Below are positions 37,927 through 62,620 of a stretch of DNA of 64,000 nucleotides, in pieces. Each line of letters starts with the position of its first letter. The first letter of the stretch is position 1. The translations under genes were made by a program, and so were the position numbers. The DNA comes from Bacilli bacterium (GTDB lineage: Bacteria; Bacillota_I; Bacilli_A; ML615J-28; CAG-313). The stretch is taken from NCBI GenBank assembly GCA_017463365.1, contig JAFTPH010000038.1, positions 1 to 64,000 of the forward strand, written 5' to 3'. The notes under the pieces are model-generated. The model made no database searches, was not told the DNA's origin, and saw nothing but the letters and a program-made list of their open reading frames with translations.

Positions 37927-38062
37927 GCATTTTATTATAAATTAACTAAGAATATTTTCGTTTTTTCTAAGTTTACTCAAATTCATACTGATTTTTTTAA
38001 CAAAAATGCCGCTTTTTCAAACAATATAACACACAATTATTTCCACTTATTACCAAATTTAA

Positions 38063-38803
38063 TTAATTTTGTTCAGCATATTTAGAATATGCATCTTCAT
38101 CTACAACAATAGTAACATCTTCATGTCTATAAAGAACACTTGCAGGGAAATCTGTTGTAACTTCACCACTTAATAATTTTACAACAGTATCAGCTTTTCC
38201 TTTACCACTAATTAACATTAAAATTGATTTAGCTTGCATAATGTTTTTAATACCCATCGTTACCGCATGAGTAGGAACTTCATCAATACTATTGAAGAAA
38301 CGTTTATTATCTTCTCTAGTTCTTTCGGCAAGTGTAACTACAAATGTTTCTTGTTCAAATGATGTACCTGGTTCATTAAATCCAATATGACCATTTCCAC
38401 CAATACCAAGTAATTGAATATCAATTGATGCCTTTTTTAATGCTTCATTGTATGCATTACATTGAGCTTGAATTTCACTTTCAGTTCCTCTTGCACTTGG
38501 AATGTGAACATTTTCTTCTTTAATATCAACGTGATTGAATAAATTATCATGCATAAAGCAATAGTAGCTTTGTGGATGATCAATGCTAATACCACAATAT
38601 TCATCTAAATTGTAAGTTTTAACATCTTTGAAGCTCACTTCTTTATTATTGTATGCTTCAATAATTTTTTGGTACGTACCAATTGGGCTACTTCCTGTTG
38701 CAAGCCCTAAAGTAGAACGAGGATTTTTCTTAACTTGTTCAATTAAGATATCTGCTGCTACTTTACTCATTTCATCATAGTTTTTTGTAACGATTACTTT
38801 CAT
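38063..38803 (-). CDS. nagB: Glucosamine-6-phosphate deaminase
   Basis: Converts glucosamine-6-phosphate to fructose-6-phosphate and ammonia, feeding amino sugars into glycolysis. The 246-residue protein has LGLATGSSPIGTYQKII (33-49), TYNLDEYCGI (catalytic aspartate region), GIGGNGHIGFNEPGTSF and a typical length. AAGGAGG lies within the end of nagZ, one base away. Last gene of the 15-gene operon. The deacetylase NagA that should precede it in the pathway is absent from the window. Confidence 0.97.
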   Translation of the reverse strand: MKVIVTKNYDEMSKVAADILIEQVKKNPRSTLGLATGSSPIGTYQKIIEAYNNKEVSFKDVKTYNLDEYCGISIDHPQSYYCFMHDNLFNHVDIKEENVHIPSARGTESEIQAQCNAYNEALKKASIDIQLLGIGGNGHIGFNEPGTSFEQETFVVTLAERTREDNKRFFNSIDEVPTHAVTMGIKNIMQAKSILMLISGKGKADTVVKLLSGEVTTDFPASVLYRHEDVTIVVDEDAYSKYAEQN

Positions 38804-38804
38804 T

Positions 38805-40370
38805 TTATACCTCCTTAATTGTCACTGGAATTTTTCCTTTAGCTTCTGCACTACCAGTTAGCACTTTTGATAGTGATTTAAAAGCTAGTGGTGTAGCTTC
38901 ATAACTACATACATATGTTGAAATATTTTCTAATACGCCATAATCATATGGTGTTCTAATCGCAACTACAATTAATTTATTTTTATCTAATGAATTTATT
39001 AAATTTGCTTGTTCTGGATTAAAGCACGCATTATAGCTACAATATACTATTTTATCATATTCTGTTTGTTTTTTCAACAATAATTCTTTTTCTTCTTCAC
39101 TTGGTGATAATGGCATATATATTTTATCACAAGCAAAAGGCATAAATTCCGCTAGTGACATAAGTCCCATTTCATCATTTTCAACTAAAGTTACTACTTG
39201 TATTTGAGGGAAAACAATTAGTGTTTTCTCTTCTTTTTTAATAGGTAATAATTTCTTGTTATCTTCTATTAAGGTAATACTATCTAAACTTACCGCTTCA
39301 CTAAATGCAACCGCTTCTTCATTGCATAATTCTTTTTCAATATCTTCGAATGAATCAGCCATTGGTCTAATGAATTGTTCTTTATATTTTAAAATTCTTT
39401 CTACTGCTTCATCAATTTTTGTAAGAGGAATTCTCCCTTCTTTAGCAAGTCTTACAGCAGTATCATAAAAATCTTTTTGAAGATTAATATCGCGAGCTCC
39501 ACATAGAAGCAAAATATCATCTCCAGAATTAAAGCCATTTTCAACAATTTCTTCAATTGTAAAATTATTGAAAACCGCCTTCATTGTTAATGAATCAGTT
39601 ACAACTAATCCATCATATCCAATTTCATCTCTTAATAACCCTTGAACTACTTTTTTTGATAAAGTAGATGGATACTTATCATCATATTTTGTAAATAATA
39701 CATGACTTACCATTATACCTGGCAAATTAAGTTCTTTAGCTTTAATAAATGGTTTTAATTCCATTTCATATAAACGTTTTTCATCAAAATCAACAACCGG
39801 TAAACCAACGTGAGAGTCAACCGCTGTATCTCCATGTCCAGGGAAATGTTTAATTGAAGACATCATTAAGGCATCACTATAACCATTAACTGCTTCAACT
39901 ACATATTCTGATACAATATCAGGGTTTTCTGAATAAGATCTTACATTAATAACTGGGTTTTTAGGGTTATTATTAATATCACCTACTGGTGCAAAATTAA
40001 AGTTAAACCCCAACATTTGAAGTTCTCGACCCATATTGTATGCAAGTTTATATGCATTTTTAGGATTACCTGTTGCACTTATTGGCATTGCTCCAGGTGA
40101 TTGAGTAACTCCTTCAGTAACACGCGCTACCATTCCTCCTTCTTGGTCTAAACTCACAAATGGAGGGATTTTAGCATTCTTATAAATTTCTTTATTAAGG
40201 TTGAAGATTTGTGCAGGACTTGCACAATTATCTTTAAAATAAATTACAAGTCCCACTTTCATATCTTCAATTTGCATTTTTAATTCTGAATTATAATCTG
40301 TACCTTTAAAAGCAAAACCAATCATTTGACCAATTTTTTCTTCTAAAGTCATTTTTTTAATATCAAACAT
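38805..40370 (-). CDS. nagZ: GH3 beta-N-acetylglucosaminidase, NagZ/YbbD-like, cytoplasmic
   Basis: A 521-residue glycoside hydrolase family 3 enzyme that releases beta-linked GlcNAc. The catalytic barrel (1-330) has FVSLDQEGGMVARV (71-84), the NagZ signature KHFPGHGDTAVDSH (174-187, with the His-Asp pair acting as acid/base) and nucleophile Asp259 (VVTDSLTM). A C-terminal alpha/beta domain (about 345-521) gives the two-domain form of Bacillus YbbD/NagZ. No signal peptide, so it would act on imported oligosaccharides. It follows the phosphodiester-glycosidase genes by six bases. Confidence 0.94.
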   Translation of the reverse strand: MFDIKKMTLEEKIGQMIGFAFKGTDYNSELKMQIEDMKVGLVIYFKDNCASPAQIFNLNKEIYKNAKIPPFVSLDQEGGMVARVTEGVTQSPGAMPISATGNPKNAYKLAYNMGRELQMLGFNFNFAPVGDINNNPKNPVINVRSYSENPDIVSEYVVEAVNGYSDALMMSSIKHFPGHGDTAVDSHVGLPVVDFDEKRLYEMELKPFIKAKELNLPGIMVSHVLFTKYDDKYPSTLSKKVVQGLLRDEIGYDGLVVTDSLTMKAVFNNFTIEEIVENGFNSGDDILLLCGARDINLQKDFYDTAVRLAKEGRIPLTKIDEAVERILKYKEQFIRPMADSFEDIEKELCNEEAVAFSEAVSLDSITLIEDNKKLLPIKKEEKTLIVFPQIQVVTLVENDEMGLMSLAEFMPFACDKIYMPLSPSEEEKELLLKKQTEYDKIVYCSYNACFNPEQANLINSLDKNKLIVVAIRTPYDYGVLENISTYVCSYEATPLAFKSLSKVLTGSAEAKGKIPVTIKEV

Positions 40371-40376
40371 ATATTA

Positions 40377-42359
40377 TTATCTCTTCTTTTTTAAAACAAT
40401 TAATCCTAAAGAAGCCATTGTAATTAAACCAGTAACTACTAAAGCTAAATCTTTCTTACATCCAGAATCATTTGTTCCTGGATCAGTTGGGTTATCTGAA
40501 GTTCCTGGATCAACTGGTGTATTTTCAGCTTTTGGAATAGATCCAGCCGCATAAACTAATTTTGCAAGTTCTACAACTTTTCCATTAGTAAGCTCTGCCA
40601 TTAATACAAATTCATTTTCAACAGTTGTATCAGCAACGTTTACTGAAACTTTTCCTGATAATCCTTCAACTAATGTTTCAACATCACCATTCTTAACATA
40701 CATCTTGCTGACAACCGCATTATCATCTTTGACACGATATTTGAATGTAACTACACCTTCTTCTAATTTTGATTCTTCAAAATCTTTTAATTCAGGGAAG
40801 GCATAATCTTCAGTTTTTAATGTATATGTATGGCTTGTTCCTTTATCAATTGTTCCATCTTTATTTAAAATTTCATATGAATAACTTACACTATATTCCA
40901 TATTTGGAATTAAACCAGTAACTGTTACTTCATTACCTGTCATTTCATATTCTTTACCATCTACATTTAAAGTAACATTTTGTAATGTTCCATCAACAAC
41001 TTCGCCAGTTTTCTTTAGAGTAATAGAATTTCCAACTGGTTCTTGAACTTGTAATTTAGGGTCTTTCATAACAAGTAATACCGCATTACCTGTACTTCTT
41101 AATACACCCCAAGGTTGACCTGTTTGACGTGCATCAGATGGGTCATTAATTAAAGTCATTTCTCCGTTAATTCTTGCCATTAATGTTGATGATCCACCAC
41201 CATCAAGGTTATATCCTTCAACACATCCAGCAAGTCTTAATAATTCACCACATTGGAATAATGATGCACCTTCTAGGTTATCTCCCACACTTCCACGTCC
41301 ATCAATAACCATTAAAACGATACTTCCATCTTCTTTAAATCCAACTAAAGTACGTGGATGAGTTGTATTAATAAATAATGCATTGTCGTTATTAGCTGAT
41401 GTTGTATTTGCATATTGTGGTTGTCCGTCTTTTAATACTTGATAGATAAATCCAACCGCATTTTCAATGCCAGCAAGTTCACCTGCTAAGTTATATTCAA
41501 CTTTAACATTTGCACCTGCAGTTAAAACTTCTGATTTAGCTGCAACATAGAATTTACCAGCTTCAACACTTGATAAACTTGTAACATCTGCTTTACCAGT
41601 AATAGTTCCTTTTAAGAAGTACCCACCACTATAATCACGATATTTTGTGTATGTCCCTTCATATACAACATATCCAGATAAATTAACATTTTCACCTAAT
41701 TTTTTAGTATAAACGTTTACTCCGGATTCACTTGGAGTTTTATTTGTTCCAGCAACTGTTAATGTTTCAACAGTTTTTCCATTTTGTAGCACTTCTAAAG
41801 ACATGTTTGATTCTCTTTGTTGACCAAATACAGCAACGTGATCTTTATTAGTTTCTCCAAATCCTAATACACCACGGTAACTTCCACCTGGTGCTTTAGC
41901 ACGTAATACGTCACCTTCTTGAACATGGAAGTTTGTAGGTTCTCCAGTTCCTCCAGCAGAGTTATCAAAGAAGTCTCCATTTACCGCACCAACAACGATA
42001 TATCCTGGGTGAGTAGTTTCATAATCTTGAATTGTACGATCTAAGTTTGTGGCTTTCCAGTTTTCAGCTCCCCCAACACTCCATACAACTGGTTTTACAG
42101 CACTTTCTTCACCTACCGTTAACCATTGAACAGTATGGTTATTCCATAATGGAGTACCTTCCATAGCTCCATTATATACCGTTGAAATTTGTTGTTTTGT
42201 AAGTTCTACTTGTCCTTCTAATTTCCAATTTTGCGCTTCGTTTATTTCTTTAGCATATCTTGATAAATCTTTTGGAGTATATGCAGAAACATTTAGAAGT
42301 GGCAATATAAAAGCAAATAACAGTAATAATATTATTTTTTTAGTTTGTATTTTTTTCAT
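40377..42359 (-). CDS. Surface phosphodiester glycosidase (NAGPA domain), copy 1
   Basis: A 660-residue secreted protein: signal peptide to about residue 25 (LLNVSA-Y), a NAGPA/phosphodiester-glycosidase domain with GYIVVGAVNGDFFD, NTTHPRTLVGFKEDGSIVLMV and GYNLDGGGSSTLMARINGE, two beta-rich C-terminal domains and a tail GCKK-hydrophobic helix-KKKR. The human relative uncovers mannose-6-phosphate by removing GlcNAc from a phosphodiester; bacterial members are little studied. A plausible job is trimming GlcNAc-1-phosphate links in surface polymers. Start ATG 42359 has GGAGG. It shares an almost identical catalytic segment with copy 2. Confidence 0.87.
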   Translation of the reverse strand: MKKIQTKKIILLLLFAFILPLLNVSAYTPKDLSRYAKEINEAQNWKLEGQVELTKQQISTVYNGAMEGTPLWNNHTVQWLTVGEESAVKPVVWSVGGAENWKATNLDRTIQDYETTHPGYIVVGAVNGDFFDNSAGGTGEPTNFHVQEGDVLRAKAPGGSYRGVLGFGETNKDHVAVFGQQRESNMSLEVLQNGKTVETLTVAGTNKTPSESGVNVYTKKLGENVNLSGYVVYEGTYTKYRDYSGGYFLKGTITGKADVTSLSSVEAGKFYVAAKSEVLTAGANVKVEYNLAGELAGIENAVGFIYQVLKDGQPQYANTTSANNDNALFINTTHPRTLVGFKEDGSIVLMVIDGRGSVGDNLEGASLFQCGELLRLAGCVEGYNLDGGGSSTLMARINGEMTLINDPSDARQTGQPWGVLRSTGNAVLLVMKDPKLQVQEPVGNSITLKKTGEVVDGTLQNVTLNVDGKEYEMTGNEVTVTGLIPNMEYSVSYSYEILNKDGTIDKGTSHTYTLKTEDYAFPELKDFEESKLEEGVVTFKYRVKDDNAVVSKMYVKNGDVETLVEGLSGKVSVNVADTTVENEFVLMAELTNGKVVELAKLVYAAGSIPKAENTPVDPGTSDNPTDPGTNDSGCKKDLALVVTGLITMASLGLIVLKKKR

Positions 42360-42384
42360 GCGATTTTTTCCTCCCATTTAGGAA

Positions 42385-44340
42385 CTATTTTTTCTTTCTA
42401 AATAATGCAAGCAAACTTGCTAGTGATATTAGACTAACCACAAGTAACGCAGCTTCTTTTTTACATCCTGATGTACTATCATCAGTAGGATTTTCAACTT
42501 TTCCTTCTTCATCACTTGGAGTTTTATCTAAAGCTGGAATTGTGTTGGCTTCATATTTAATTACTCCAAGTTCAACGACATCACCATTTGAAAGTTCTGC
42601 CATTAATTTAAATTCATTTTCAATTTCAGTATCTATTTCTTCAATTTTAATTCTACCAGATAATCCTTCTAATGCAATTTCTTTTGAACCATGTTTAATA
42701 AATACACGTTTTACATCTTCTTCTTCAGCATCAACTTTATATTTTAAAGTTACTGTTCCTTTATCTAATTTATGCTCTACAAATTCTTTTAATTCAGGGA
42801 AGGCATAATCTTCAGTAGTTCGATAGAATGTCTCACTTATACCATGATCAACACTACCATCATCATTAACAATATCATATTCATAAGTAATTTCATATTC
42901 AGTAGCTTTATCTAAACCAGTAATTGTTAATTCATCACCAGTTAAATCGTAAGTTTTATTATCGATATTAACTTTAATATTTTCTAATCTACCATCTACA
43001 ACTTCACCAGTTCTCTTAACTGTAATAGTATTACCTACCGCTTCTTCAACTTCAATCTTAGGGTCTTTCATAACTAAAAGAATCGCATTACCAATACCTC
43101 TTAATGTTCCCCAAGGTTGCCCTGTTTGACGTGCATCAGATGGGTCATTAATTAATGTTAATTCGCCATTAATTCTTGCCATCATAGTTGATGATCCACC
43201 ACCATCAAGGTTATATCCTTCAACACATCCAGCAAGTCTTAATAATTCACCACATTGGAATAATGTTGCACCTTCTAGATTTTCAGATACCGAACCACGT
43301 CCATCGATAACCATTAATACAACACTACCATCGGCTTTAAATCCAACTAATGTACGTGGATTTAATGTTGTGAAATATCCATCCATAACTTTTGGACTAA
43401 TATTTTGGAACATTGGAAGAGAGTTATTCAAACATGGATAGCAATATCCAACAACATTTTCCGCTCCCACAACACTTCCTGTTAAGTTATATTCAACTTT
43501 AACTTCTTCATCTACATTTAATGTAACTGATTTAGTTGCGATATAGAATGTTCCACTTGGAACATTTGATAAACTTGTAATATTTTCAACTCCCAAAACT
43601 TTACCTTTCGCGAAGTATCCACCACGATAATCACGATATAAAGTTGTTGAAACTTTATAAACTGTATAACCAGTTAAATCAACTGTTTTACTTAAATGTT
43701 TAGTATATACATAAACTCCATCAGCACCAGGTGCTACATTAGTAGCTGACACTTCAGCAAGTTCAGTTGTTGCTTCATCGGTAATCTTTTTTAAGTACAT
43801 TGATGCGCTTTTTGATGGTAGACCAACTAAATGACTCTTACTACTTACAAAACCAATAACACCCCAGTTTGGATCACCATCCCAAGCTGCTCTCAAAACA
43901 TCTCCTTCTTGAACGTGATAATTTAATGGTTCTTGAGTAGTATTAATATAGAAGAAATCTCCATTTACTGCCCCAATTACAATATAACCCGGATGAGTTT
44001 CTTCATAATTCTTAGCTGTTTTTAATACATTTGATGCTTTCCATTCCTCAACACTACCATCACTCCAAACTACCGTTTGAACAGCTGTGTTTTCTTTTGG
44101 AACACTTAGCCATTGAACTGTATGATTATTCCATACTGCATCTTTTGTCACACCATTATAAATAGTGGTAATTTGTTGTTTAGTAAGTTCAACGCTACCA
44201 TTTAAAACCCATTCTTGTTTTTCGGTTAATTCTTTCGCATATTGAGATAATTGTCTACCTTCATATGCTTTTATTGTTAGGAAAGGAATAATTCCTACAA
44301 TCATCAAAATAAATACGAATTTTTTAAATCCACTTAACAT
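42385..44340 (-). CDS. Surface phosphodiester glycosidase (NAGPA domain), copy 2
   Basis: A 651-residue paralogue with the same order: signal peptide (ending near IKA-Y), NAGPA domain (GYIVIGAVNGDFFY, NPRTLVGFKADGSVVLMVIDG, YNLDGGGSSTMMARINGE), beta domains, and the C-terminal GCKKEAALLVVSLISLASLL then RKKK. It is mosaic: its catalytic core is nearly the same as copy 1, whereas its middle segment (SGTFYIATKSVTLNVDEEVK) is nearly the same as copy 3. Start ATG 44340 has AAGGAG. Lies 25 bases upstream of copy 1. Confidence 0.87.
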   Translation of the reverse strand: MLSGFKKFVFILMIVGIIPFLTIKAYEGRQLSQYAKELTEKQEWVLNGSVELTKQQITTIYNGVTKDAVWNNHTVQWLSVPKENTAVQTVVWSDGSVEEWKASNVLKTAKNYEETHPGYIVIGAVNGDFFYINTTQEPLNYHVQEGDVLRAAWDGDPNWGVIGFVSSKSHLVGLPSKSASMYLKKITDEATTELAEVSATNVAPGADGVYVYTKHLSKTVDLTGYTVYKVSTTLYRDYRGGYFAKGKVLGVENITSLSNVPSGTFYIATKSVTLNVDEEVKVEYNLTGSVVGAENVVGYCYPCLNNSLPMFQNISPKVMDGYFTTLNPRTLVGFKADGSVVLMVIDGRGSVSENLEGATLFQCGELLRLAGCVEGYNLDGGGSSTMMARINGELTLINDPSDARQTGQPWGTLRGIGNAILLVMKDPKIEVEEAVGNTITVKRTGEVVDGRLENIKVNIDNKTYDLTGDELTITGLDKATEYEITYEYDIVNDDGSVDHGISETFYRTTEDYAFPELKEFVEHKLDKGTVTLKYKVDAEEEDVKRVFIKHGSKEIALEGLSGRIKIEEIDTEIENEFKLMAELSNGDVVELGVIKYEANTIPALDKTPSDEEGKVENPTDDSTSGCKKEAALLVVSLISLASLLALFRKKK

Positions 44341-44356
44341 ATTTATTCTCCTTATA

Positions 44357-46303
44357 TTATTTTCTCTTTTTTGCTAAAACCAATAACCCTGTAAGTCCAA
44401 TTAAGCTAATTACTATGTGACTTACTTCTTTTTTACAACCTGTTTTGTTTTCTTCAGGGTTAATATCAACAACTGAATCATCAACTTCCTCATTATCAAG
44501 TGATGGAATAGTTGATGCTTCATATGTAATACTTCCCATTTCAAATTCTAATCCATTATTTAATTCAACTACTAGAGTAAAAATATTTTTCACTAAAGTA
44601 TCAATATTTTCTATTTTAACTTTTCCTGATGTTCTTTCAAGTTCAATTTTATTGCTGCCATATTTTATATATATTTTCGCCAAATCTTCTTTGTCAACAT
44701 CAACTTTATATTTTAAAGTAACTTCAGCAATATCCACTGATGCTTCCACAAATTCTTCTAAAACTGGCATTACATAATCTTCTGTTGTTCGATAGTATTT
44801 TTCTGTAATTCCATGAACAATACTTCCATCAGGATTTTTAATATCATATTCAATTGTAAATCCGTATTCCGAATTTTTATCTAAACCAGTAATTTCAAGT
44901 TTATCACTTGTCATATCATATGTTTTATTATCAAAAATTACTTTAATATTTTCCATTGTTCCATCAACAACTGGTGCTTTTTGTTCAATTGTAATTGAAT
45001 TACCAATAGCTGCTGGAATATTAAAATTAGGGTTTCTCATTACTAATAATATTGCGTTACCAACTTTTCTAGTACTTCCATCGGTTGGATTATTAACTAA
45101 CGTTAGGCGGCCATTTATTCTTGCAGCAAGAGTTGCTGAACCACCACCATCAAGATTGAACCCATCAACACATCCCATTATTTTTAATAATTCTCCCGTT
45201 TGGAAAAGAGTTGTTCCTTCTTTATTATTAGCAGGACCTCCTGATCCATCAACGGTCATTAATACAATGCTGCCATCTTCTTTAAAACCAATAGCGGCTC
45301 TTGTATAAGTTTTAGTTAAGTATCCCCCTAAAACACTTGTTGGTAAGTTTTGACCTAAAGTATTACCATCTTTTAAACATTGATATATATATCCAATAAC
45401 ATTTTTAGCACCTGCTGTGCCACCCGTTAAGTTATATTCTACTTTTATTTCTTCATCTACATTTAAAGTTACTGATTTAGTTGCAATATAGAATGTTCCA
45501 CTTGGAACACTGCTTAAATTAGTAACATTTTCAACACCAGCAACTTTACCTTTTACAAAATAACCATCATTATATTTACGATATAAAGAGGTAATCCCTT
45601 TATATACTGTATAACCAGTTAAATCAATTGTTCCACTTAATTCTTTTGTAAACACAAATACTCCATCGCCTGTTGGTTGAGTATTAGTACTTGTAACTGC
45701 TGATAAATCGACTGTCTCATTATCAGTAATCTTTTTTAAATACATTGAGTCACTTTTAGTTGGATTACCTGTTACATATTCACCATTATCTTTAAATCCT
45801 AGTAATCCAAAATTTAAATCATCTGTATAATATGATGCTCTTAAAACATCACCTTCTTGAACATGGTAATTACATGGTTCATATGTCTTACCATTTAATT
45901 CTGTTTCTTTATTATAATAGAAATCTCCATTAATGGCAGCCACCACAATATAACCTGGGTTTTGTTTTTCGTAGTCAGCAGCCATTTCTAAAACTGTTTT
46001 AGGAGCCCAATTTTCTAATGAACCAGTACTCCATACTACTGGGAAAATATCGGTATTTTCACTTGGTGTAGTTACCCATTGAACTGTGTGATTATTCCAA
46101 GCGGTTTTATCCGAGATTACCCCGTTAAATACAGTTGATATTTGTTGTTCTCTTACCTCAACGCCTCCTTCAACAATTTGCTTTTCAGCTTCGTTTATTT
46201 CCTTCGCATATTGAGATAAATATTTCGGGGTATAAGCTGAAACACTGAGGATTGGGAAGAGGAAGAAAACAATAAGCAAAAATACTATTTTTTTTACTTT
46301 CAC
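44357..46303 (-). CDS. Surface phosphodiester glycosidase (NAGPA domain), copy 3, divergent active site
   Basis: A 648-residue paralogue beginning with GTG behind AGAGGAG. Signal peptide to about residue 23 (LSVSA-Y), NAGPA domain with VAAINGDFYY (121-130) and FNLDGGGSATLAARINGR (382-399), beta domains, and tail GCKKEVSHIVISLIGLTGLL then KKRK from residue 622. Compared with copies 1 and 2 it reads VDGSG instead of IDGRG, GGGSA instead of GGGSS, and lacks about ten residues (the ARQTGQPWG loop). It may differ in substrate or activity. First of the three in transcription order. Confidence 0.85.
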   Translation of the reverse strand: MKVKKIVFLLIVFFLFPILSVSAYTPKYLSQYAKEINEAEKQIVEGGVEVREQQISTVFNGVISDKTAWNNHTVQWVTTPSENTDIFPVVWSTGSLENWAPKTVLEMAADYEKQNPGYIVVAAINGDFYYNKETELNGKTYEPCNYHVQEGDVLRASYYTDDLNFGLLGFKDNGEYVTGNPTKSDSMYLKKITDNETVDLSAVTSTNTQPTGDGVFVFTKELSGTIDLTGYTVYKGITSLYRKYNDGYFVKGKVAGVENVTNLSSVPSGTFYIATKSVTLNVDEEIKVEYNLTGGTAGAKNVIGYIYQCLKDGNTLGQNLPTSVLGGYLTKTYTRAAIGFKEDGSIVLMTVDGSGGPANNKEGTTLFQTGELLKIMGCVDGFNLDGGGSATLAARINGRLTLVNNPTDGSTRKVGNAILLVMRNPNFNIPAAIGNSITIEQKAPVVDGTMENIKVIFDNKTYDMTSDKLEITGLDKNSEYGFTIEYDIKNPDGSIVHGITEKYYRTTEDYVMPVLEEFVEASVDIAEVTLKYKVDVDKEDLAKIYIKYGSNKIELERTSGKVKIENIDTLVKNIFTLVVELNNGLEFEMGSITYEASTIPSLDNEEVDDSVVDINPEENKTGCKKEVSHIVISLIGLTGLLVLAKKRK

Positions 46304-46323
46304 GCTATTCTCCTCTTATATTT

Positions 46324-47001: not shown

Positions 47002-47025
47002 TTTATCACTTCCTTATTTAATGTT

Positions 47026-49192: not shown

Positions 49193-49194
49193 TT

Positions 49195-52629: not shown

Positions 52630-52641
52630 AAGTACACCTCC

Positions 52642-53286: not shown

Positions 53287-53288
53287 AC

Positions 53289-55148
53289 CTAGTCATCCTC
53301 CCTTACTAAACCTTGTTTTTTCTTATTTTGATGTTTTACAAACATCAATCCACATAATCCTACAGCTGTAATAACAAGTCCCGTCATGATAAGCGCGAAA
53401 TTTTCTTTTAAGATATTATCACGATATTGTTGATATGCTTTAGAATAGTATGCAGCATTATGTCCTAATTCGAAATAATACATTGCTTCTTCAAATTGTT
53501 CTAAACGAAGTAAGCTCTTACCAATTCCAACATATCCAAGCTCATAGTTAGAGTTCATCTTAACTACTTCTCTCCAGTACTTTTCAGCACCGATGATATC
53601 ATTTTCTAAATATAATTTTGTTGCTTGGTTTACTAAACTACCAAATGTTGATGTACTATAAGAAATAATACTCTTAGATGTTCTATCAACGATTAATACT
53701 AATTCTTGTTTTTCAGTATTTTCCTTAGCTTCGATTGTTAAATAACTAATCGCAACTGGTTCATTAATACTGTTAGATAATTCACCTTTTTCACCAGAGA
53801 TGTATAGTAAGTTACCTTCAGTATCATATGTGAAAATTCTTCCACGTTTTGCATCTGTAACAGAATAGAATCCATCAGGGTTAACGGCGATTGCTGTTAA
53901 AGTTGATGCCCCAATTGTTACTTCTTTATTTGTATGAGCTGATAAGAATACCGCATCTCCATTAGGGGCAACGTATCCATTTCTTCTTAATACGTCTTTA
54001 CCAGATGTATTAATTGCTTTGATCATATTTGATCCAGCTACGTTTTCTGAATCCGGATAAGATGTTGCATATAAGAATCCATCTTCATCCATTGTGATAT
54101 TAATGAATTCTGGTGGTAAAGTTAATGCTTGTTGTTCTTTTTGAATTTCAGACATAATCTTATACCAGAATTGTTTTAATGGGTTAGCTGTAACAACGTT
54201 CTTACCTAAGAAACGGTTAAACTTACCATTTGCTGAACTATATTCAAATTTAACTTCTTTAGTTTCTTCATCAAGTTCTAAAGTATTTTCATAAGTAGCT
54301 TTACTAAATTCAATAATACCTTCATATGTGTTTTTAGCTACACAGTAAACACGTTTTGTTTTATCAACCGCAATCTTAGTAGGTTTAAATAAACGTTTAG
54401 TTGATGTTGATAAATCTGTTTCAGTATCCCATTGATAGAATACTTCATCAGTTGGAGTTAAGTATACTTCTGTAACAACATAATCTGAAGTCATCTTTAA
54501 AATTCTTGAGTTATCAGTATCTGCAATATAGATGGAATAACTGTCACCTTCTTCAACAACCGCAAGACCTTGCGCATTATTTAAGAAGACACTAGCACCA
54601 CTATATTCATCAGTTCCTTCTAAAACTGACTCTTTAATAATTGGCATATATGGAGCTTTCTTAGAAAGATCACTTCCTTCAAAATCTGAAGATGTAATTG
54701 CTGATAATTCTTTATTAAAATTATAATAAGCTCTTAATGTGTCATAAACATGTTTTGTAATTTCAAATTCTGTAACTGGTTGTTCAATACATTTCATTTC
54801 TTCATTTAAAATTACAATTGAACTAACACCTTTTGTTTTTAAAATCGTTTTGTTAATTTCAATTTGTACTTCAGATGAAGTATCATTTTCTGAGTCTAAG
54901 ATGAAGATTTCGTTATTATAAATAACCATATCTTCTAAAGTATTGAATGTTAATGTTTTTGAATCATCATTAATATCTAAGATATCTTTACCGTAATAAG
55001 TATCTTTGTAAGTTAGCCCTTCAGCAGAAGGTAGAGCGTTTTTCCAGAAATCGTAGTTGTAACTTGCACCATTACTGATAAACATAGTAGCAGTTAGCAT
55101 TACTGAAAAACTTAAAACTAATATTAAAGCTTTTACATATTTCTTCAT
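53289..55148 (-). CDS. Membrane-anchored NHL-propeller protein with TPR-like repeats
   Basis: A 619-residue protein with an N-terminal signal or anchor helix (ALILVLSFSVMLTATMFISN), an extracellular beta-propeller with NHL-type blades (about 60-510: YSIYIADTDNSRILKM, FLYATSYPDSENVAG, GFYSVTDAKRGRIFTYDTEG), a short TPR-like helical pair (about 510-575: DIIGAEKYWREVVKMNSNYE, LEQFEEAMYYFELGH) and a C-terminal membrane helix (FALIMTGLVITAVGLCGLMF) with a basic tail. ATG 55148 lies eight bases from GGAGG. Propeller plus TPR suggests a scaffold or ligand sensor for the surrounding permeases. Confidence 0.75.
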   Translation of the reverse strand: MKKYVKALILVLSFSVMLTATMFISNGASYNYDFWKNALPSAEGLTYKDTYYGKDILDINDDSKTLTFNTLEDMVIYNNEIFILDSENDTSSEVQIEINKTILKTKGVSSIVILNEEMKCIEQPVTEFEITKHVYDTLRAYYNFNKELSAITSSDFEGSDLSKKAPYMPIIKESVLEGTDEYSGASVFLNNAQGLAVVEEGDSYSIYIADTDNSRILKMTSDYVVTEVYLTPTDEVFYQWDTETDLSTSTKRLFKPTKIAVDKTKRVYCVAKNTYEGIIEFSKATYENTLELDEETKEVKFEYSSANGKFNRFLGKNVVTANPLKQFWYKIMSEIQKEQQALTLPPEFINITMDEDGFLYATSYPDSENVAGSNMIKAINTSGKDVLRRNGYVAPNGDAVFLSAHTNKEVTIGASTLTAIAVNPDGFYSVTDAKRGRIFTYDTEGNLLYISGEKGELSNSINEPVAISYLTIEAKENTEKQELVLIVDRTSKSIISYSTSTFGSLVNQATKLYLENDIIGAEKYWREVVKMNSNYELGYVGIGKSLLRLEQFEEAMYYFELGHNAAYYSKAYQQYRDNILKENFALIMTGLVITAVGLCGLMFVKHQNKKKQGLVREDD

Positions 55149-55160
55149 ATTCGCCACCTC

Positions 55161-56183
55161 CTATTTCATACCTGAGTGAGCCATTGTTTCGATGATTTGG
55201 CTTTGTGATAATACGAAAACCGATACCGGAACAATCATCATAATCAACATTACGGCTGCTGATGTACCTGTTCTTGCTACCCCTGTATTTACGATTTGGT
55301 GTAAAGAGTAACTTAATGGTTTTAATTGCTCACTATAAATATATGTACCACCATCGTTATTCCATAATTGTTGGAATAATAAGATGATTAATGTTAACCA
55401 AGCTGGTTTAACAAGTGGCATAACGATTTTCCAATAAATTTGGAATTCGCTTGCGCCATCTAGTTTTGCTGATTCAATGAAGTCATTTGGAATATCTTGC
55501 ATGAACTGTTTCATTAAGTATAAACCTAGTGAATAAGCAAATGCAGGAACGATGATTGCCCATTGAGTATCTACAAGTCCGATTAAACTGAAGATAATAT
55601 ATCTTGGAGTATCTGTAACTTGTGCAGCAAACATTAATGAATAAACTACCATACCGAAGATAATTTTACTTCCAGGGAATTTGTGTTTTGCAAGTGGATA
55701 AGCAGCCATTGAAGCAATAACTACATGTCCAATTGTTCCCATTAAAGTAATGAAGATTGTATTGAAGAAGTATCTTGAGAATGGTACCCAAGAGTCACTC
55801 ATTACAATACTTAAATCGATAAAGTTATCAAATGTAGGGTTCATTACGAATAATTTTGGAGGATAAATGAATAACTCATTTAATGGTTTAAACGCTGCGA
55901 AGATTGTATATAGTAGCGGATAAGCACTAAATGCTCCAAATAAACATAACATTAAGAATAAGGCAATGTCTCCACCAACGCTTCTTGACATTCTCTTTTT
56001 CTTTTTAATACGACGACGTTTTTCCATTTGGTAGAAGAATAACTCTAATTTACCCATTTTAGATTCATCACGAATACCAAACTTCTTTAACTTCTTCTCT
56101 TGTCTTTTACGGCGCTTAATCTCAGCTTTACTTTCGCCAACACCTTTTACTGCGTCGTTATCAATATTCATCTTACGAGCCAT
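55161..56183 (-). CDS. Carbohydrate ABC transporter permease (MalG-type), pair B
   Basis: A 340-residue permease with six helices and the EAA loop IPNDFIESAKLDGASEFQIYWKIVMP. The N-terminus has about 70 extra, strongly basic residues (KAEIKRRKRQEKKLKKFG, RRRIKKKKRMSRS) before TM1, unusual for the family. Two bases from its partner. The ATPase is missing locally. Confidence 0.92.
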   Translation of the reverse strand: MARKMNIDNDAVKGVGESKAEIKRRKRQEKKLKKFGIRDESKMGKLELFFYQMEKRRRIKKKKRMSRSVGGDIALFLMLCLFGAFSAYPLLYTIFAAFKPLNELFIYPPKLFVMNPTFDNFIDLSIVMSDSWVPFSRYFFNTIFITLMGTIGHVVIASMAAYPLAKHKFPGSKIIFGMVVYSLMFAAQVTDTPRYIIFSLIGLVDTQWAIIVPAFAYSLGLYLMKQFMQDIPNDFIESAKLDGASEFQIYWKIVMPLVKPAWLTLIILLFQQLWNNDGGTYIYSEQLKPLSYSLHQIVNTGVARTGTSAAVMLIMMIVPVSVFVLSQSQIIETMAHSGMK

Positions 56184-56185
56184 GA

Positions 56186-57547
56186 CTAATTGCCTACCCT
56201 TCTTAAAATTTTCTTAATTAATCCGTTTGCTAAAATCATTACTAAGAATAAGATTGTAGCGATTGCAGAAGCATAACCCATTTCCATACGTAAGCTACCA
56301 TAGTCCATCAAGTGGGTAATGATTGTATGCCCGGCATACTCAATTGATGGGAATCCCGCAATTTGGATTGATACAGCTGCGACTGATAAACTTGATGTAA
56401 TTTGCATTACCGCCCCGAACATTAATTGTGATTTCATTTGTGGTAAAGTAATAAACCATAGTTCTTGCCAACGGCTCTTAATACCGTCAATCGCACCAGC
56501 TTCATATAATTCTTTATTAACTGATTGTAACCCGGCGATGAAGGCTAGGAACGAAACCCCTAAACTCATCCATAATTGTACAATCATAACAATCCAGATA
56601 ATGTAATCGGCATTTTGTAACCATAAGACAGGTTCTTGAATAATACCAAGTTGCATTAGGATTGAGTTAGCATAACCATAAATATCACTACTGAAAATTA
56701 ATTTCCATACTAAGTATACGTTACCTGAAATAGATGGAGCGTAGAATATTAAGGTCATAAATGCTCTTAATTTTGGTTTTAATTCATTGATTAACCATGC
56801 GAAGATAAATGCCATTAAGTAACTTAATGGACCAGTTACTACCGCAAGTAATAATGTATTTCTGATCGCAATAATAAATACTTTATCATCTACGAAAAGT
56901 CTCATGTAGTTTTCCCAACCTACAAATGAAGGAAACTCTAAAAGGTTGAAGTATGTAAATGATAATACAAGTGACATTACAACCGGTAATACTGTAAAGA
57001 TAAAGAATAAGATTGTGTAAGGAGCAACTAAATAGTAGTATTGACGTTTGATGTACATTTCTCTACGTAAGCGTCCACCACGTTTACTCCAACGTTCAAG
57101 TTTGTATCCTAAAGATGCACGTTCTTTTTCAATTCTTAATTTTTGAACTAATCTTTCATGATCTTTTGAATAAGCAAAGTATGCATCTTCTGCTTCTTGA
57201 TTTGTTTTATCAGCGTAGTATGCTTTCTTTAATTCGTCATATTTAACTTGACTTTCAGCAACACGTTTCTTTAATTCAACAATATTTTCTTTAACTTGAG
57301 CATCGAAAGCTTCATCTTCTGCTTTCCATTCGGCTTTTTTGTTTTTAATAGCTTCACGAAGTTCAGCTTTACGATTCAATTTTTCTGCTCTTTCAAGAGC
57401 AGCTTTTTCACGTCTTTCAGCTCTTGTTGCAGGTGCGCCATTAGCTCTATCAAGCTTTTTATTTTTCATGACATATCTTACAATTCCAAAAGCAATTAAC
57501 GCGAATATTACTGAGAATACTATATATAAAATTACGTTAAATTCCAT
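56186..57547 (-). CDS. Carbohydrate ABC transporter permease (MalF-type) with N-terminal helix and coiled coil, pair B
   Basis: A 453-residue permease, about 150 longer than usual. Residues 5-27 form an extra membrane helix, then about 38-165 is a highly charged coiled coil (ERAEKLNRKAELREAIKNKK, VKENIVELKKRVAESQVKYD). The ordinary permease begins near 172 (YLVAPYTILFFIFTVLPVVM) and carries the EAA loop VNKELYEAGAIDGIKSRWQELWFITLPQ. The extension would lie in the cytoplasm, where it could bind the shared ATPase or the basic tail of the partner permease. Confidence 0.9.
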   Translation of the reverse strand: MEFNVILYIVFSVIFALIAFGIVRYVMKNKKLDRANGAPATRAERREKAALERAEKLNRKAELREAIKNKKAEWKAEDEAFDAQVKENIVELKKRVAESQVKYDELKKAYYADKTNQEAEDAYFAYSKDHERLVQKLRIEKERASLGYKLERWSKRGGRLRREMYIKRQYYYLVAPYTILFFIFTVLPVVMSLVLSFTYFNLLEFPSFVGWENYMRLFVDDKVFIIAIRNTLLLAVVTGPLSYLMAFIFAWLINELKPKLRAFMTLIFYAPSISGNVYLVWKLIFSSDIYGYANSILMQLGIIQEPVLWLQNADYIIWIVMIVQLWMSLGVSFLAFIAGLQSVNKELYEAGAIDGIKSRWQELWFITLPQMKSQLMFGAVMQITSSLSVAAVSIQIAGFPSIEYAGHTIITHLMDYGSLRMEMGYASAIATILFLVMILANGLIKKILRRVGN

Positions 57548-57550
57548 ATT

Positions 57551-60500
57551 CTACTCCTCTTCATCAGATGCAAGCGGTAAGCCGAATTCTCCACGCTTAC
57601 GATCGATTTCGTTGTTAATGTTGTTTGCATATTCATACAATGTTTCTTTTGCGTTAACTAAGTTATTGATTACTTCACGGAAGGCATTTTCAACTTCACG
57701 ACCTGTAATATAACTTCCGGCAATATTTGGCATATGGTGAACACCATATACGTTTTTATAAACTTTTCCATCACTGTTAGCGGCTGTAAATGCGGCAACT
57801 TCATTTCCGTTAACAACAACAGATGAGTCTGTTTCTTCAGAGAATCCCCATTGTTTTAATAATTGATTTAAGTCATCTTTAGGCCATGCAAGTCCTTTTA
57901 ATGCGTCAATGTTTGCTGTTGCTTGACGAGCTGCAGATCCTAAGATACCTTCCATTTCTTGACCGAATAATGTTTGTGTTTCTGTGCTAGTCCACCATTT
58001 TAAGAATTCCCAAGATGCGTCACGAATGCTTTCGTCTGCTTCAGCTGGTCCTCTTAAGATTACCGCTCCAGTACCACTTACCACTGATGTATGGTCGATA
58101 TATACTTCACCATTATCATCTACACGGTAGCTACCTGGAATTGGATAGTATGACCAAGTACCACGAAGTTCAGGGGCAAATACTGATAATGTATTATATG
58201 TTTCATAATAAGCAATACCAATTGGCATTTCTCCTGAACGGAAACGGTTAATGAATGATGCATATGATGGGAATGAATATAATGTGTAGAATTCAGTCCA
58301 TGTTTCAAATGCTTCCATTCCAACATTGTTTAATAAACCTGTTTCTTTATTGTCATTGATGTATAATTCTCCACCCATTTGGTAAAGTAATGATACAAAG
58401 ATTGGGTTAAGTGCAGTAGCTCCAGAATCATTTACTGGTAAATAGAATTGTAATTGTTCTGCTTGTAAATTAGCAACTAAGTCAATTACTTCATCCCAAG
58501 TATTAGGAACTTTATCTGCCCAACCATATTTTTCCATGATGTCATCGCGGACGAACATCATTAAGAATAATTCTTTTTCTGGTAAAGCGTAAACTTCAAC
58601 ATTTCTTCCTTCAGCTCCACCCCAGTCAAATGTGAATAAGGCGTTACCACTATTAGAGAATTGTTTTGCTACTTCTTCATAGTCTTCAAATTGACTAATA
58701 TCGTATACCGCATTACGTAAACCATAGTTAACTGGTAATGAGCTATCAACGTTAATCGCAACGTCTGGTCCAATTCCAGCAAGTGTAGATTTTAATAATA
58801 CGTCTGTACCAGTAATCTTTAAGTCAATTTGAACTCCAGTTTTAGGTGTGAAGTTTTCATCGGCTAAACGTCTAATTACGTTAGCTTGGTCACGTCCTAA
58901 AGTCATCCAAACTTCGATTGTTTCAGTTACTTCTGCATCTGTATCCATTGCTCCAATTGTTGAGTAATCGATAAAGAATGAATAGAAGAAATTAACGATT
59001 CCATCCCATAATCCTTTAAAGAATCCTTCGTTAGCTTTTGGTAATTCATAATCAGGTGTGTGAACCATGATATAGTCAACCATAAGTGGCGCTTCACGTA
59101 AGTCAGCAAGGATTGTACCAAGTGATGAAATGTTGTTACTAAATGTTCCAAGTCTTGATGGAAGGCTTCGAGCCTCATCTTCTAAGAAGTCTTCAAGTTG
59201 TACTACGAATGTATCAATAACCCCTGTTTTATCTGATTGTGTTCCAGATATATCAGAGATAGATTTTGAAACTGTTTCAAGTCTTGTTTTGGCAGTTTCT
59301 AAACGTTTCATTAAGTTAAGTTCAGTACGATTAGCAAGTTCATAGTCACGTCCAGCATCCGGAGATGTTGTAGTGAACTTGATAATTTCTAAGTATAAGT
59401 CATTTAAGTAGGCAACAATGTCTTCAATTTCTTCAACTAAGGCTGCATAATCTCCAAGTGTTACTTCCATTGTGATTGTGTGAGTACCTTTTGTTAAGTA
59501 GAATTCAAATTTTTCTTGTTCATTACCTAGTGTTAATAATTGCCAATCTGATGAATAAGAGAAAATAGTTTGTTTTAATTCATCGAATGCAACCTCACCA
59601 TCGATATAAACAATACGGTTAGAGTACATACCTCTTACTGTAGATTGCTTAGCTCTTAAAGAGATGTTATAGTAACCATCTGCAGGAACTTCTACTTCCC
59701 ATGTAATCCAGTCTCCTAAAACTCTCCAGCTATCTCCACCGATAGAGTTTAATCTAGTTGCTGAATATTCATATGGATATGTCATTGAGCTTGTACGGTC
59801 TGTTTGAGGATATAATGTTGGAGATGATTTAGAAATTGCAGCTTCTGCTTCAACTCTTGATGAATATGTTCCAGCTTCTACGTTTTTACCCTCATTTGAA
59901 GCTTTATATTCTTCATAACTCATACCTTCTTGAATACTTTCAACAGTAAGTTTGTCAATAAGTATATTTTCTTTAACCGCATCAAGTTCGATTGTGTTCA
60001 TTCCTTTTTCAAAATAGAACATATAAGGTTCAGTTGTATAACCCATATCATCTTTGAAATAAGCAGTTCTTAATTCAGGATTTTCTTGTTGTTTAGGTTT
60101 AACATCATTACCTTTAGTATCAACTTCTGGTTTAATAGTTGTTAAATAGTTATTAGTATCACTAGTGTCAAGTTCAATAATATCTAATCCGTTACCCCAA
60201 ACACGTGAGAATACGAATGTTGTAGTTTTATCAAACATTTCTTCTCCGTTAATAGATAATCTTCTTTCAATTGCTGAAGAAGTACCTTTGATTGGATAAT
60301 AAGTAAGTTTTAAATTATAGAAACCTGCCTCAGGAACATTAATTTCCCAAGTTACACTACCTTTATCAGGAGTATAAAGTAACTTATCATTAACATCATC
60401 TGTATCCTTGATATTTAAAGATTCGTCATCTTTATCGTAAACAACAAGTGTTCCTTCTTCTGTTAATTCACTTAAGCTTTTACTGTAATCAACACCAGCA

Positions 60501-60721
60501 ACGCTTACACTTACTCCTTTTGGAGTACCAGCATTACTATGTTCTTTTTTCATTTTTTCCAAATACGAATTATAATCATTCGAATTGGCAGTAGTTGTCG
60601 TTTCTTGTGGATTGTATGTATAAGTGATCGGTTTAGAACCAGTATTGTTAAAAATAACAATTACCGCTACAACAAGCACTAATACAACAAGTGTGACAAG
60701 AACAAATCGCTTTTTCTTCAT
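57551..60721 (-). CDS. Membrane-anchored sugar-binding protein fused to two CBM-like domains
   Basis: A 1056-residue extracellular protein held by an N-terminal helix (FVLVTLVVLVLVVAVIVIF, 6-24); no lipobox cysteine is present. Two jelly-roll domains resembling CBM35/CBM6 cover about 85-265 (WEINVPEAGFYNLKLTYYPI) and 285-430 (WEVEVPADGYYNISLRAKQS). A helical spacer (about 430-560) leads to an SBP family 1 domain (about 600-1030: EVWMTLGRDQANVIRRLADE, GIGPDVAINVDSSLPVNYGL, PNTWDEVIDLVANLQ). Second gene of the operon, directly before the permeases. The fused CBMs suggest binding of a polymeric glycan before handing fragments to the importer. Confidence 0.88.
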   Translation of the reverse strand: MKKKRFVLVTLVVLVLVVAVIVIFNNTGSKPITYTYNPQETTTTANSNDYNSYLEKMKKEHSNAGTPKGVSVSVAGVDYSKSLSELTEEGTLVVYDKDDESLNIKDTDDVNDKLLYTPDKGSVTWEINVPEAGFYNLKLTYYPIKGTSSAIERRLSINGEEMFDKTTTFVFSRVWGNGLDIIELDTSDTNNYLTTIKPEVDTKGNDVKPKQQENPELRTAYFKDDMGYTTEPYMFYFEKGMNTIELDAVKENILIDKLTVESIQEGMSYEEYKASNEGKNVEAGTYSSRVEAEAAISKSSPTLYPQTDRTSSMTYPYEYSATRLNSIGGDSWRVLGDWITWEVEVPADGYYNISLRAKQSTVRGMYSNRIVYIDGEVAFDELKQTIFSYSSDWQLLTLGNEQEKFEFYLTKGTHTITMEVTLGDYAALVEEIEDIVAYLNDLYLEIIKFTTTSPDAGRDYELANRTELNLMKRLETAKTRLETVSKSISDISGTQSDKTGVIDTFVVQLEDFLEDEARSLPSRLGTFSNNISSLGTILADLREAPLMVDYIMVHTPDYELPKANEGFFKGLWDGIVNFFYSFFIDYSTIGAMDTDAEVTETIEVWMTLGRDQANVIRRLADENFTPKTGVQIDLKITGTDVLLKSTLAGIGPDVAINVDSSLPVNYGLRNAVYDISQFEDYEEVAKQFSNSGNALFTFDWGGAEGRNVEVYALPEKELFLMMFVRDDIMEKYGWADKVPNTWDEVIDLVANLQAEQLQFYLPVNDSGATALNPIFVSLLYQMGGELYINDNKETGLLNNVGMEAFETWTEFYTLYSFPSYASFINRFRSGEMPIGIAYYETYNTLSVFAPELRGTWSYYPIPGSYRVDDNGEVYIDHTSVVSGTGAVILRGPAEADESIRDASWEFLKWWTSTETQTLFGQEMEGILGSAARQATANIDALKGLAWPKDDLNQLLKQWGFSEETDSSVVVNGNEVAAFTAANSDGKVYKNVYGVHHMPNIAGSYITGREVENAFREVINNLVNAKETLYEYANNINNEIDRKRGEFGLPLASDEEE

Positions 60722-60722
60722 T

Positions 60723-62546
60723 TTAGTTGCCTCTTTCTTTCAATTTTTTTAAGATTTCAATTAATTGGTGAAGGCGTAAAGCACTAAACTTATAACCTTC
60801 CATTTTATTTCTCGCTTCCCACAGCGTTTTGTGAACATCTAGATAATTAGTTAAACTGAAAATGCAATTATCTAATGATTCAAGGTATCCATGACCATCA
60901 AAATATGCCTTAAGCATCATATTGACGTCTAAAAGAGTAGTTAATAACTCAATACTTCCAAGAATTTCATTTGTCACTAAAGAATCATCTTTAACAACCC
61001 TTTTCTTTAAAGCATCAAATTCTAACGTTAACGCATAAGCTTCTTCGTTTGATAAAAGATTATACGTCATTTTATTTAAAAAGAAACCTAGTTTATCAGA
61101 TTCATTTTTAGCACCTTCACTATGAAGTATTACACTAAATAGCTTGCTGCCATATGATCTGTAAGCTCCTTCTAAGCGTGTGTAGGTCGATAAATCTAGT
61201 ATTAGGGTAGCATTAATAACACCTACTAGTTCTTCTAATACTACTTTTATCAAATACTCTGGACTATTATCAACATTCCAACTACACATAGCTCCATAGA
61301 TAATTCCCGGATAGCTATATGGTAAATATTGTAAATGTCCTAAATCTCCCCAATCTGTTAGTAACATTCCTTCCCCTCCATACGCCCTTGTATAAAAACA
61401 AGCATTGCGGATGGTTGTCACCATTTCTAAATACCTTGAGGTAATTACTCCCCAAGTCGAAGTTGCTGGCGCTGTCGTAAATTTAACATCTAATTCTTTC
61501 AGCAATTTCGAATTTTTGTGATACGGATAATCTACATTGTATCCCCAATCAACAAAAATAACATCTTTTGGTAGTCGCTTAATTGACTCAGGATGTTTGA
61601 GTAAAACGTCTCCCCAAATTAAGGGTGTTTTACCATGTTTTTTAACATGTTCGTAAAGAGTTAAGAAATAATCAACAAAGACTTCACCTTCACCCTTTTC
61701 TAAAACAATGTCTTTACTTTTGCCATGACCTAGTTCAAATGGTTCATCAAAATTCATATTGAAGAATTTTGATTTTGTATGTGGTAAGAAATCATCGTAT
61801 AAACTTTTTACAAACTCAATACTTTTTGGATTACTAGGATCCAAGGTCGAAGGAGTTCTTTTACTTCCCCACATTTCAAATAAACCATCAACTTCTGAAA
61901 GTTCTTTAAATTTATCTTGTAATAACCAATCTTGCATATGACCAAAACCATTTTCATTTGGCACTAAATCAATAAAGTGATCATTTGCGTAATCCTCAAG
62001 AAGAGCATATTGTTCAAATGTTAAATAGTTTTTATCAATTAAAACTTCTGGATAAATTGTTGACTCTAAACTAAAACCTTCAACATATAGTTCTAAGTGA
62101 TTGTACTTTAAACTAGATAGTAAATCAATAACTTCTTTAATTGTCTCGATTTTAGGAACTTTTGACCTTGAGATATCCATCATAAATCCTCTAATCTTTA
62201 AATCAGGATAATCATATATCTCACAACATCTTATTTTAGATTCTTTTAAAGCCAACCATTTCAGGCTCATAACAGCATAAAAAGCTCCCGTATCGGTCGA
62301 TGAACTAATCACAATTTCTTGTTCATTAACCACAATTTGGTAAGCTTCTTCCTTCAAACAATCTATTTTTTTTATTTTTAGAGTTATTTGTTTTTCTGAA
62401 GACGGCCATTTGCTTGTTAGTTCACTAATTCGCTCTTGCAATCTGGTACTTGTATCAAAGTCATTTTGGATAATTTTTACATCACGCGTGATTTCTAAAA
62501 ACCCTGGCAAGACTTTATACTGTTTAAGTATTGGAACCGCTTGCAT
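60723..62546 (-). CDS. GH20-like beta-N-acetylhexosaminidase, cytoplasmic
   Basis: A 607-residue protein with the GH20 layout: an N-terminal alpha/beta domain (about 1-110) and a barrel (about 115-430) starting at LKIRGFMMDISRSKVPKIET. NMNFDEPFELGHGKS near 265 holds the Asp-Glu pair expected in GH20, and WGDVLLKHPES and TAPATSTWG belong to the active-site wall. A helical C-terminus follows. No signal peptide. It should remove GlcNAc or GalNAc from imported oligosaccharides. First gene of the 15-gene operon, with AAGGAG upstream. The family assignment is secure to the clan but the substrate is open. Confidence 0.85.
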   Translation of the reverse strand: MQAVPILKQYKVLPGFLEITRDVKIIQNDFDTSTRLQERISELTSKWPSSEKQITLKIKKIDCLKEEAYQIVVNEQEIVISSSTDTGAFYAVMSLKWLALKESKIRCCEIYDYPDLKIRGFMMDISRSKVPKIETIKEVIDLLSSLKYNHLELYVEGFSLESTIYPEVLIDKNYLTFEQYALLEDYANDHFIDLVPNENGFGHMQDWLLQDKFKELSEVDGLFEMWGSKRTPSTLDPSNPKSIEFVKSLYDDFLPHTKSKFFNMNFDEPFELGHGKSKDIVLEKGEGEVFVDYFLTLYEHVKKHGKTPLIWGDVLLKHPESIKRLPKDVIFVDWGYNVDYPYHKNSKLLKELDVKFTTAPATSTWGVITSRYLEMVTTIRNACFYTRAYGGEGMLLTDWGDLGHLQYLPYSYPGIIYGAMCSWNVDNSPEYLIKVVLEELVGVINATLILDLSTYTRLEGAYRSYGSKLFSVILHSEGAKNESDKLGFFLNKMTYNLLSNEEAYALTLEFDALKKRVVKDDSLVTNEILGSIELLTTLLDVNMMLKAYFDGHGYLESLDNCIFSLTNYLDVHKTLWEARNKMEGYKFSALRLHQLIEILKKLKERGN

Positions 62547-62591
62547 TTGTTACCATCTCCTTATGAAAAAATAATACTCTAGTCTTTACTT

Positions 62592-62620
62592 ATTATACCA
62601 AAGAAAACGTTTTTCTGCAA
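62592..62620 (-). promoter_or_regulatory. Promoter of the 15-gene glycan operon, with operator-like box
   Basis: TATAAT (62592-62597) with an extended TGG; TTGCAG lies 17 bases upstream (62615-62620). Between them AGAAAACGTTTTTCT (62602-62616) forms a near-palindrome around CG, similar to the cre-like boxes elsewhere. No other promoter this good is visible before 38063. Confidence 0.7.

Follow-up and report, generated by a model that had tools for sequence, protein, structure and literature searches.

A conserved importer operon and its neighbouring MurNAc genes as a probable locus for feeding on peptidoglycan sugar chains in a Bacilli bacterium

The window, by which we mean the whole stretch of DNA analysed here, comprises 64,000 nucleotides of contig JAFTPH010000038.1 from a Bacilli bacterium, an uncultured relative of the mycoplasmas (assembly GCA_017463365.1). 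Positions 38063-62546 of its minus strand carry 15 open reading frames, all in one direction by the open reading frame list, whose coordinates place successive genes 1-24 bases apart or overlapping by 13-14 bases; an earlier, sequence-only reading of 15 genes on one strand, with gaps of at most 25 bases or overlaps, is thereby confirmed. Most of these genes are preceded by a Shine-Dalgarno-like sequence. A predicted promoter of the form TTGCAG-17-TATAAT serves the operon (62592-62620, minus strand), and the same layout is found before the orthologous operons of two relatives, G005 and G010, while the preceding gene, which encodes a GHL10 protein (62730-63986), is closed by a terminator-like hairpin (62689-62717, minus strand) and forms a separate unit. 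That this is the only clear promoter, as had been claimed from the letters, agrees with our finding that internal promoter-like sites are no commoner than in shuffled sequence (86 against 99 +/- 10, and 68 against 68.5 +/- 10.5). It is this gene anatomy (spacing, promoter and terminator) that leads us to speak of an operon, and it would predict one transcript for all 15 genes. Pfam likewise agrees with the families first named (GH20, a CBM-fused solute-binding protein, permease pairs, NHL/YIP1/DUF5696, DUF624, three NAGPA, NagZ and NagB), the CBM35 match being weak.

Eight of these genes, all on the minus strand, constitute an importer cassette with the order SBP-perm-perm-NHL-YIP1-DUF5696-perm-perm. 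Its first member, SBP1 (57551-60721; PF13416), is a large solute-binding protein anchored by an N-terminal transmembrane segment and with a CBM35-like N-terminal region (weak PF16990); it is followed by permeases F1 (56186-57547) and G1 (55161-56183), both matching PF00528. The next protein (53289-55157; PF01436) is modelled as a membrane-anchored, six-bladed NHL beta-propeller with TPR-like helices (pLDDT 87); its best fold matches are NHL propellers (E 7e-11) and it is hydrophobic at both ends. A YIP1 membrane protein (52642-53286; PF04893) and the DUF5696 protein precede the second permease pair, comprising F2 (48083-49207), which is 22% identical to F1 and lies marginally below the PF00528 cut-off (26.1 against 26.4), and G2 (47026-48096; PF00528). 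After the cassette comes a DUF624 (MusI-like) membrane protein (46324-47001, minus strand), recognised by a Pfam/profile match. The combination of a binding protein with two permeases is that of a carbohydrate ABC importer of the CUT1-like kind. We dropped the view that no binding protein serves the second permease pair, since a 546-aa protein encoded at 30974-32614 (minus strand) is a solute-binding lipoprotein with a lipobox, here called SBP2. It has no Pfam match itself, and SBP_bac_1 is matched by 11 of its 22 aligned homologues; in several Acholeplasmatales (L079, L080, L094 and L108) its gene stands directly before that of SBP1, and we infer that SBP2 may be the partner of F2 and G2. The contig of L079 is filed as Candidatus Falkowbacteria, carries a Mollicutes-type operon and is likely misbinned. 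There is no MalK-type ATPase within the operon; MalK OB-domain matches occur elsewhere in the genome, and the ATPase of the importer is presumably a MalK-type protein encoded there.

The DUF5696 protein (49195-52629, minus strand; PF18952, 475 bits) has an N-terminal membrane anchor and a GH129/GH101-like fold, with the barrel and sandwich characteristic of GH129. Its model (pLDDT 83) has a GH129 structure as best fold match in Foldseek (5opq, E 6.6e-23, TMt 0.66), and a profile search agrees (E 3.9e-10). In related clans the nucleophile follows barrel strand 4. Although the fold is shared with the GH129 glycosidases (5opq, 5wzn), the residue taken to lie at the end of this strand, position 927, is asparagine in the window protein and aspartate in only 30 of 52 homologues, which makes a non-catalytic, glycan-binding role plausible. 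DUF5696 is unmentioned in any paper of the literature that we searched.

The operon begins with a GH20 beta-hexosaminidase (60723-62546; PF00728, PF02838) and ends with a NagZ-type GH3 beta-N-acetylglucosaminidase (38805-40370; PF00933, with the motif KHFPGHGDT) and the glucosamine-6-phosphate deaminase NagB (38063-38803; TIGR00502, 291 bits, above cut-off), all on the minus strand. The GH3 protein scores under the strict NagZ equivalog cut-off (181 against 207 bits), and its solved relatives are 6k5j (E 6.5e-100) and YbbD/NagZ 3bmx (E 9e-67). A NagA is present elsewhere in the genome. Between the DUF624 and nagZ genes lie three genes for surface NAGPA phosphodiester glycosidases (copy 1, 40377-42377; copy 2, 42385-44340; copy 3, 44357-46303; all minus strand and PF09992), each protein having a signal and a C-terminal anchor, which in copy 3 is a transmembrane segment. 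The RT-G, DGR and NLDGGGS motifs align with those of the solved NAGPA 6pku, as seen in copy 2, and the copies look like tandem duplicates because they are 46-55% identical to one another (55% for copies 1 and 2). Their C-termini have a cysteine motif (GCKK, GGGGC or KKCSKK) before the transmembrane segment and basic tail, rather than LPXTG; it is seen at 42385-46303 and 40377-42377 and in the NAGPA proteins of loci L031-L038, and may be a signal for sorting or lipidation of a kind not yet recognised. The teichoic-acid linkage unit, GlcNAc-1-phosphate on O6 of MurNAc, resembles the substrate of mammalian NAGPA, and cleavage of such phosphodiester-linked groups could be the contribution of these enzymes to the operon; that the product would suit MupG and MurQ is a circumstantial point. 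Literature searches that paired NAGPA with teichoic acid yielded no information about function.

Other genes of the window also point to the cell wall. The upstream GHL10 protein (62730-63986, minus strand; PF02638, 214 bits) belongs with Cwp19 in a lytic transglycosylase family. Lytic transglycosylases make anhydro-MurNAc ends, which are handled by AnmK. The best solved relative is Cwp19 itself (5oq2, E 1.3e-75 over 388 residues), and the homology covers the catalytic domain. Whereas Cwp19 of C. difficile, for which lytic transglycosylase activity is proven (PMC6016235), has a signal peptide and surface repeats, the window protein has neither, and the absence of an N-terminal hydrophobic segment from 62730-63986 sets it apart from secretion of the Cwp19 type. 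The gene directly upstream of 63986 (L151:3989-5029) is a second GHL10-like one, cut off by the end of the contig. At 1126-2955 of the window there is a secreted N-acetylmuramoyl-L-alanine amidase with Ig-like domains, and in L108 a homologue stops a short way upstream of the importer run.

Just downstream of the operon, and outside the interval originally described, positions 24211-33743 hold a MurNAc pathway, again on the minus strand and as a separate transcription unit. Between the two lies the gene for a 1349-aa secreted surface protein with a C-terminal anchor and a long helical region (33881-37930, minus strand), which in most same-family genomes separates nagB from the GlmA-like gene. 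The cluster proper comprises a GlmA-like double-GNAT acetyltransferase (32757-33743; PF00583; 5kf1, E 3.6e-34), SBP2, a second DUF624 protein (30186-30860; PF04854), the exo-beta-N-acetylmuramidase NamZ (29048-30193; PF07075, 291 bits), the 6-phospho-N-acetylmuramidase MupG (27985-29040; PF19200, PF05913), a MurK-like BadF-type kinase (27039-28010; PF01869) whose best match is the MurNAc/GlcNAc kinase 8zo3 (E 2.9e-16), the anhydro-N-acetylmuramic acid kinase AnmK (25860-27038; PF03702, 338 bits; NF007148 above cut-off), the N-acetylmuramic acid 6-phosphate etherase MurQ (24944-25858; TIGR00274, 365 bits against a cut-off of 302) and an alpha/beta hydrolase (24211-24951) that is syntenic with murQ in relatives. 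MurNAc salvage of the MurQ type is thus represented by MurQ itself, by NamZ together with NagZ, and by kinases that would produce MurNAc-6P (AnmK and the MurK-like protein). No hydrophobic N-terminus was found in GH20, NagZ, NagB, NamZ, MupG, AnmK, MurK or MurQ, and nearly all relatives of NamZ and NagZ have none either; GH20, NagZ and NamZ are accordingly predicted to be cytoplasmic, and oligosaccharides, not monosaccharides, should therefore be imported. Two small genes follow the salvage cluster at 22527-24111, one of them weakly PI3K/HipA-like, and are absent there in the relatives that we read. In G004, murQ is followed by ETF alpha/beta and FAD-linked oxidase genes (L150:7236-10652), with similar-sized genes in several relatives; the products of these genes may oxidise the D-lactate that MurQ sets free.

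A motif search places a putative LacI/CcpA-type operator, AGAAAAACGTTTTCTTT, within the spacer of the operon promoter (62600-62616, minus strand), where it is conserved in G010 and G005, and a similar operator-promoter arrangement precedes the operon in both. Two copies of the motif RCGYTTTCTTT occupy the SBP2 promoter (32677-32687 and 32730-32740, minus strand, spanning 32677-32740). This motif, defined post hoc from these same sites, occurs three times in 64 kb against 0.22 expected, and only in the operon promoter (once) and the SBP2 promoter (twice), which suggests that a putative LacI/CcpA-type protein co-regulates the operon and the SBP2 gene. A genome-wide search with two mismatches allowed was uninformative (40 matches against 61 in the reversed control). 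No MurR/RpiR regulator was found among the genes at 22527-63986.

Comparative genomics shows that the synteny extends to relatives. In a genome scan, all 51 loci that span 18 kb or more, drawn from across the Bacillota, keep the core order with at least seven of the eight core genes. Among relatives, 20 loci preserve SBP-F1-G1-NHL-YIP1-DUF5696-F2-G2, although a few have no separate YIP1 reading frame. Loci of the same family that are long enough also carry DUF624, NAGPA, NagZ and NagB, and NagZ and NagB accompany the cassette in many loci of the sister family. The importer operon adjoins the MurNAc cluster, with gene order unchanged, in G001, G002, G003, G007 and G008, and in L080, L082, L094, L107 and L108 (the wall-less Haploplasma modicum) the importer is followed by DUF624-NamZ-NagZ-MurK-MurQ, consecutively on one strand. 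Some relatives have a natural NagZ-MupG fusion. Peptidoglycan-salvage genes stand beside the core in 19 of 26 Mollicutes-side loci against none of 25 in Paenibacillus and Clostridia (Fisher p 1.7e-8, a value that overstates independence because the tallied loci are related by descent). The core neighbours in Paenibacillus and Clostridia include GH30, GH26, GH95, GH123, GH38 and GH32, and because the cassette adjoins other glycosidases there, we regard it as a general importer of glycans, combined with different enzymes in different places, that has here been recruited for wall sugars.

Reading substrate, enzyme activities and transport from gene content, synteny, family membership and the absence of export signals from the digestive enzymes, we think it probable that the operon and the cluster at 24211-33743 are one locus with which the cell feeds on the sugar chains of peptidoglycan. 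Amidases and lytic transglycosylases would release glycan pieces outside the cell, and NAGPA enzymes at the surface may remove from these pieces any groups held by phosphodiester links, for example teichoic-acid linkages. The two binding proteins would pass oligosaccharides to the two permease pairs, presumably driven by the MalK-type ATPase encoded elsewhere, and would be aided in this by the NHL propeller on its membrane anchor and by DUF5696 with its GH129-like fold. In the cytoplasm the GlmA-like enzyme would re-acetylate the chains, NagZ, GH20 and NamZ would strip GlcNAc and MurNAc from their ends, and AnmK and the MurK-like kinase would phosphorylate the products; MupG would split MurNAc-6P-GlcNAc, MurQ would remove lactate, and NagA and NagB would lead to fructose-6-phosphate. 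The sequence-only reading had proposed an operon that captures, imports and digests an amino-sugar glycan, a proposal that conserved gene order and families support; it counted peptidoglycan among the candidates and left the polymer unnamed, and the MurNAc-specific enzymes of 24211-33743, syntenic in relatives, are what allow it to be named.

This assignment rests on the neighbours, because the importer core serves other glycans elsewhere, and GH3, GH20 and NagB alone would fit chitin. The operon might then be a locus for chitin, or for GlcNAc from host N-glycans or mucin, with its nearness to MurNAc genes incidental; all three enzymes do act in chitooligosaccharide and host-glycan pathways. 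We consider this very improbable and reject chitin or host glycan as prime substrate, given synteny with NamZ-MupG-AnmK-MurQ across the family and the single gene run with NamZ-NagZ-MurK-MurQ in the wall-less Acholeplasmatales. Three NAGPA copies in one operon, and a second core locus in G004 that joins NAGPA with glycerophosphodiesterase, NanE and GH84, could instead mean that the locus mainly serves a secondary polymer with phosphodiester links (teichoic acid or capsule), peptidoglycan being a by-product. This too we judge improbable: NAGPA is missing from the operon in most of sister family f2, while the core, NagZ and NagB remain there. The earlier suggestion of a GlcNAc polymer with phosphodiester links holds for the amino-sugar glycan, and its phosphodiester link stays a guess; most same-order versions of the operon lack NAGPA, which makes the phosphodiester step an extra and not part of the core logic.

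The locus might also merely recycle turnover products of the organism's own wall, without feeding on other bacteria. The genome from which the window comes has two PBP transpeptidase matches and a full-length MurA, so that the organism probably makes peptidoglycan; we rejected the notion that it is itself wall-less, and it may recycle its own wall in addition. As a full explanation, however, own-wall recycling seems unlikely. Of 42 same-order genomes, 19 lack PBPs and MurA, and 13 of these carry the importer (DUF5696), NamZ and MurQ; in a hand tally of good genomes (completeness of 90% or more, contamination of 5% or less), the three are kept in seven of the nine that lack PBPs and MurA (G016, G017, G021, G022, G024, G025 and G026). 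A PBP search in H. modicum likewise gave no match. Same-order genomes that keep salvage genes without PBPs and MurA must draw the sugar from other bacteria, which suggests that relatives seemingly devoid of a wall live on the walls that others build. Anaeroplasma bactoclasticum has been described as lysing bacteria. When 13C-labelled dead E. coli cells were added to slurry, Acholeplasma was the first and main early assimilator (PMC4628116), and the peptidoglycan-feeding locus is a candidate genetic basis for this. A bolder version, possible but held tentatively, is that wall-less bacteria eat the walls of others through a dedicated peptidoglycan-oligomer importer (two permease pairs with NHL/YIP1/DUF5696), that DUF5696 is a glycosidase-derived binding or guiding part, and that NAGPA of the window's family cuts teichoic acids at GlcNAc-1-phosphate, leaving MurNAc-6-phosphate usable by MupG and MurQ.

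Parts of this pathway have close counterparts. The B. subtilis cluster murQ-murR-murP-amiE-nagZ-namZ also brings NamZ, NagZ and MurQ together, and Clostridium acetobutylicum has a NagZ/MurK/GlmA set whose BadF-type MurNAc/GlcNAc kinase and double-GNAT acetyltransferase recur in the window; we know of no such importer described with that set, and the peptidoglycan uptake routes known to us are MFS, PTS and peptide-type ABC systems. In B. subtilis, NagZ and NamZ are extracellular (PMC13204101) and monosaccharides enter, whereas in the window both lack export signals and oligosaccharides should enter first. The S. aureus mupG-murQ-murP-murR operon, in which MupG and MurQ turn MurNAc-6P-GlcNAc into GlcNAc and GlcNAc-6P (PMC6262408), shares these two enzymes with the window locus but uses the PTS MurP for uptake and phosphorylation, in place of a dual ABC-type importer and the cytoplasmic kinases AnmK and MurK-like. 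YejBEF-YepA of Agrobacterium also imports peptidoglycan fragments by an ABC system (PMC9790009), but takes muropeptides in a Gram-negative, where the window has sugar-type permease pairs with NHL/YIP1/DUF5696. The MurNAc pathway is thus already known; what is new is the importer, its coupling to that pathway, digestion in the cytoplasm and retention by apparently wall-less bacteria. This gives the widespread and previously unassigned importer module with DUF5696 a first testable role, suggests an ABC-type sugar importer for peptidoglycan, and offers a candidate reason why wall-less bacteria keep enzymes for a polymer that they themselves do not produce; the salvage reading is testable in a named strain, Haploplasma modicum ATCC 29102.

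Variants of the locus occur beyond those already described. The second core locus of G004 (contig 47; L148 and L149) also carries two GHL10, two DUF4127 and an SBP gene, and looks like a teichoic-acid or ManNAc version. Haloplasma-type loci (L085, L098 and L099) have NAGPA, core and GHL10 together, L085 also with DUF624, GH20C and DUF4127. Within the window, an Abi_2 family gene at 7011-8006 encodes a possible phage-defence protein.
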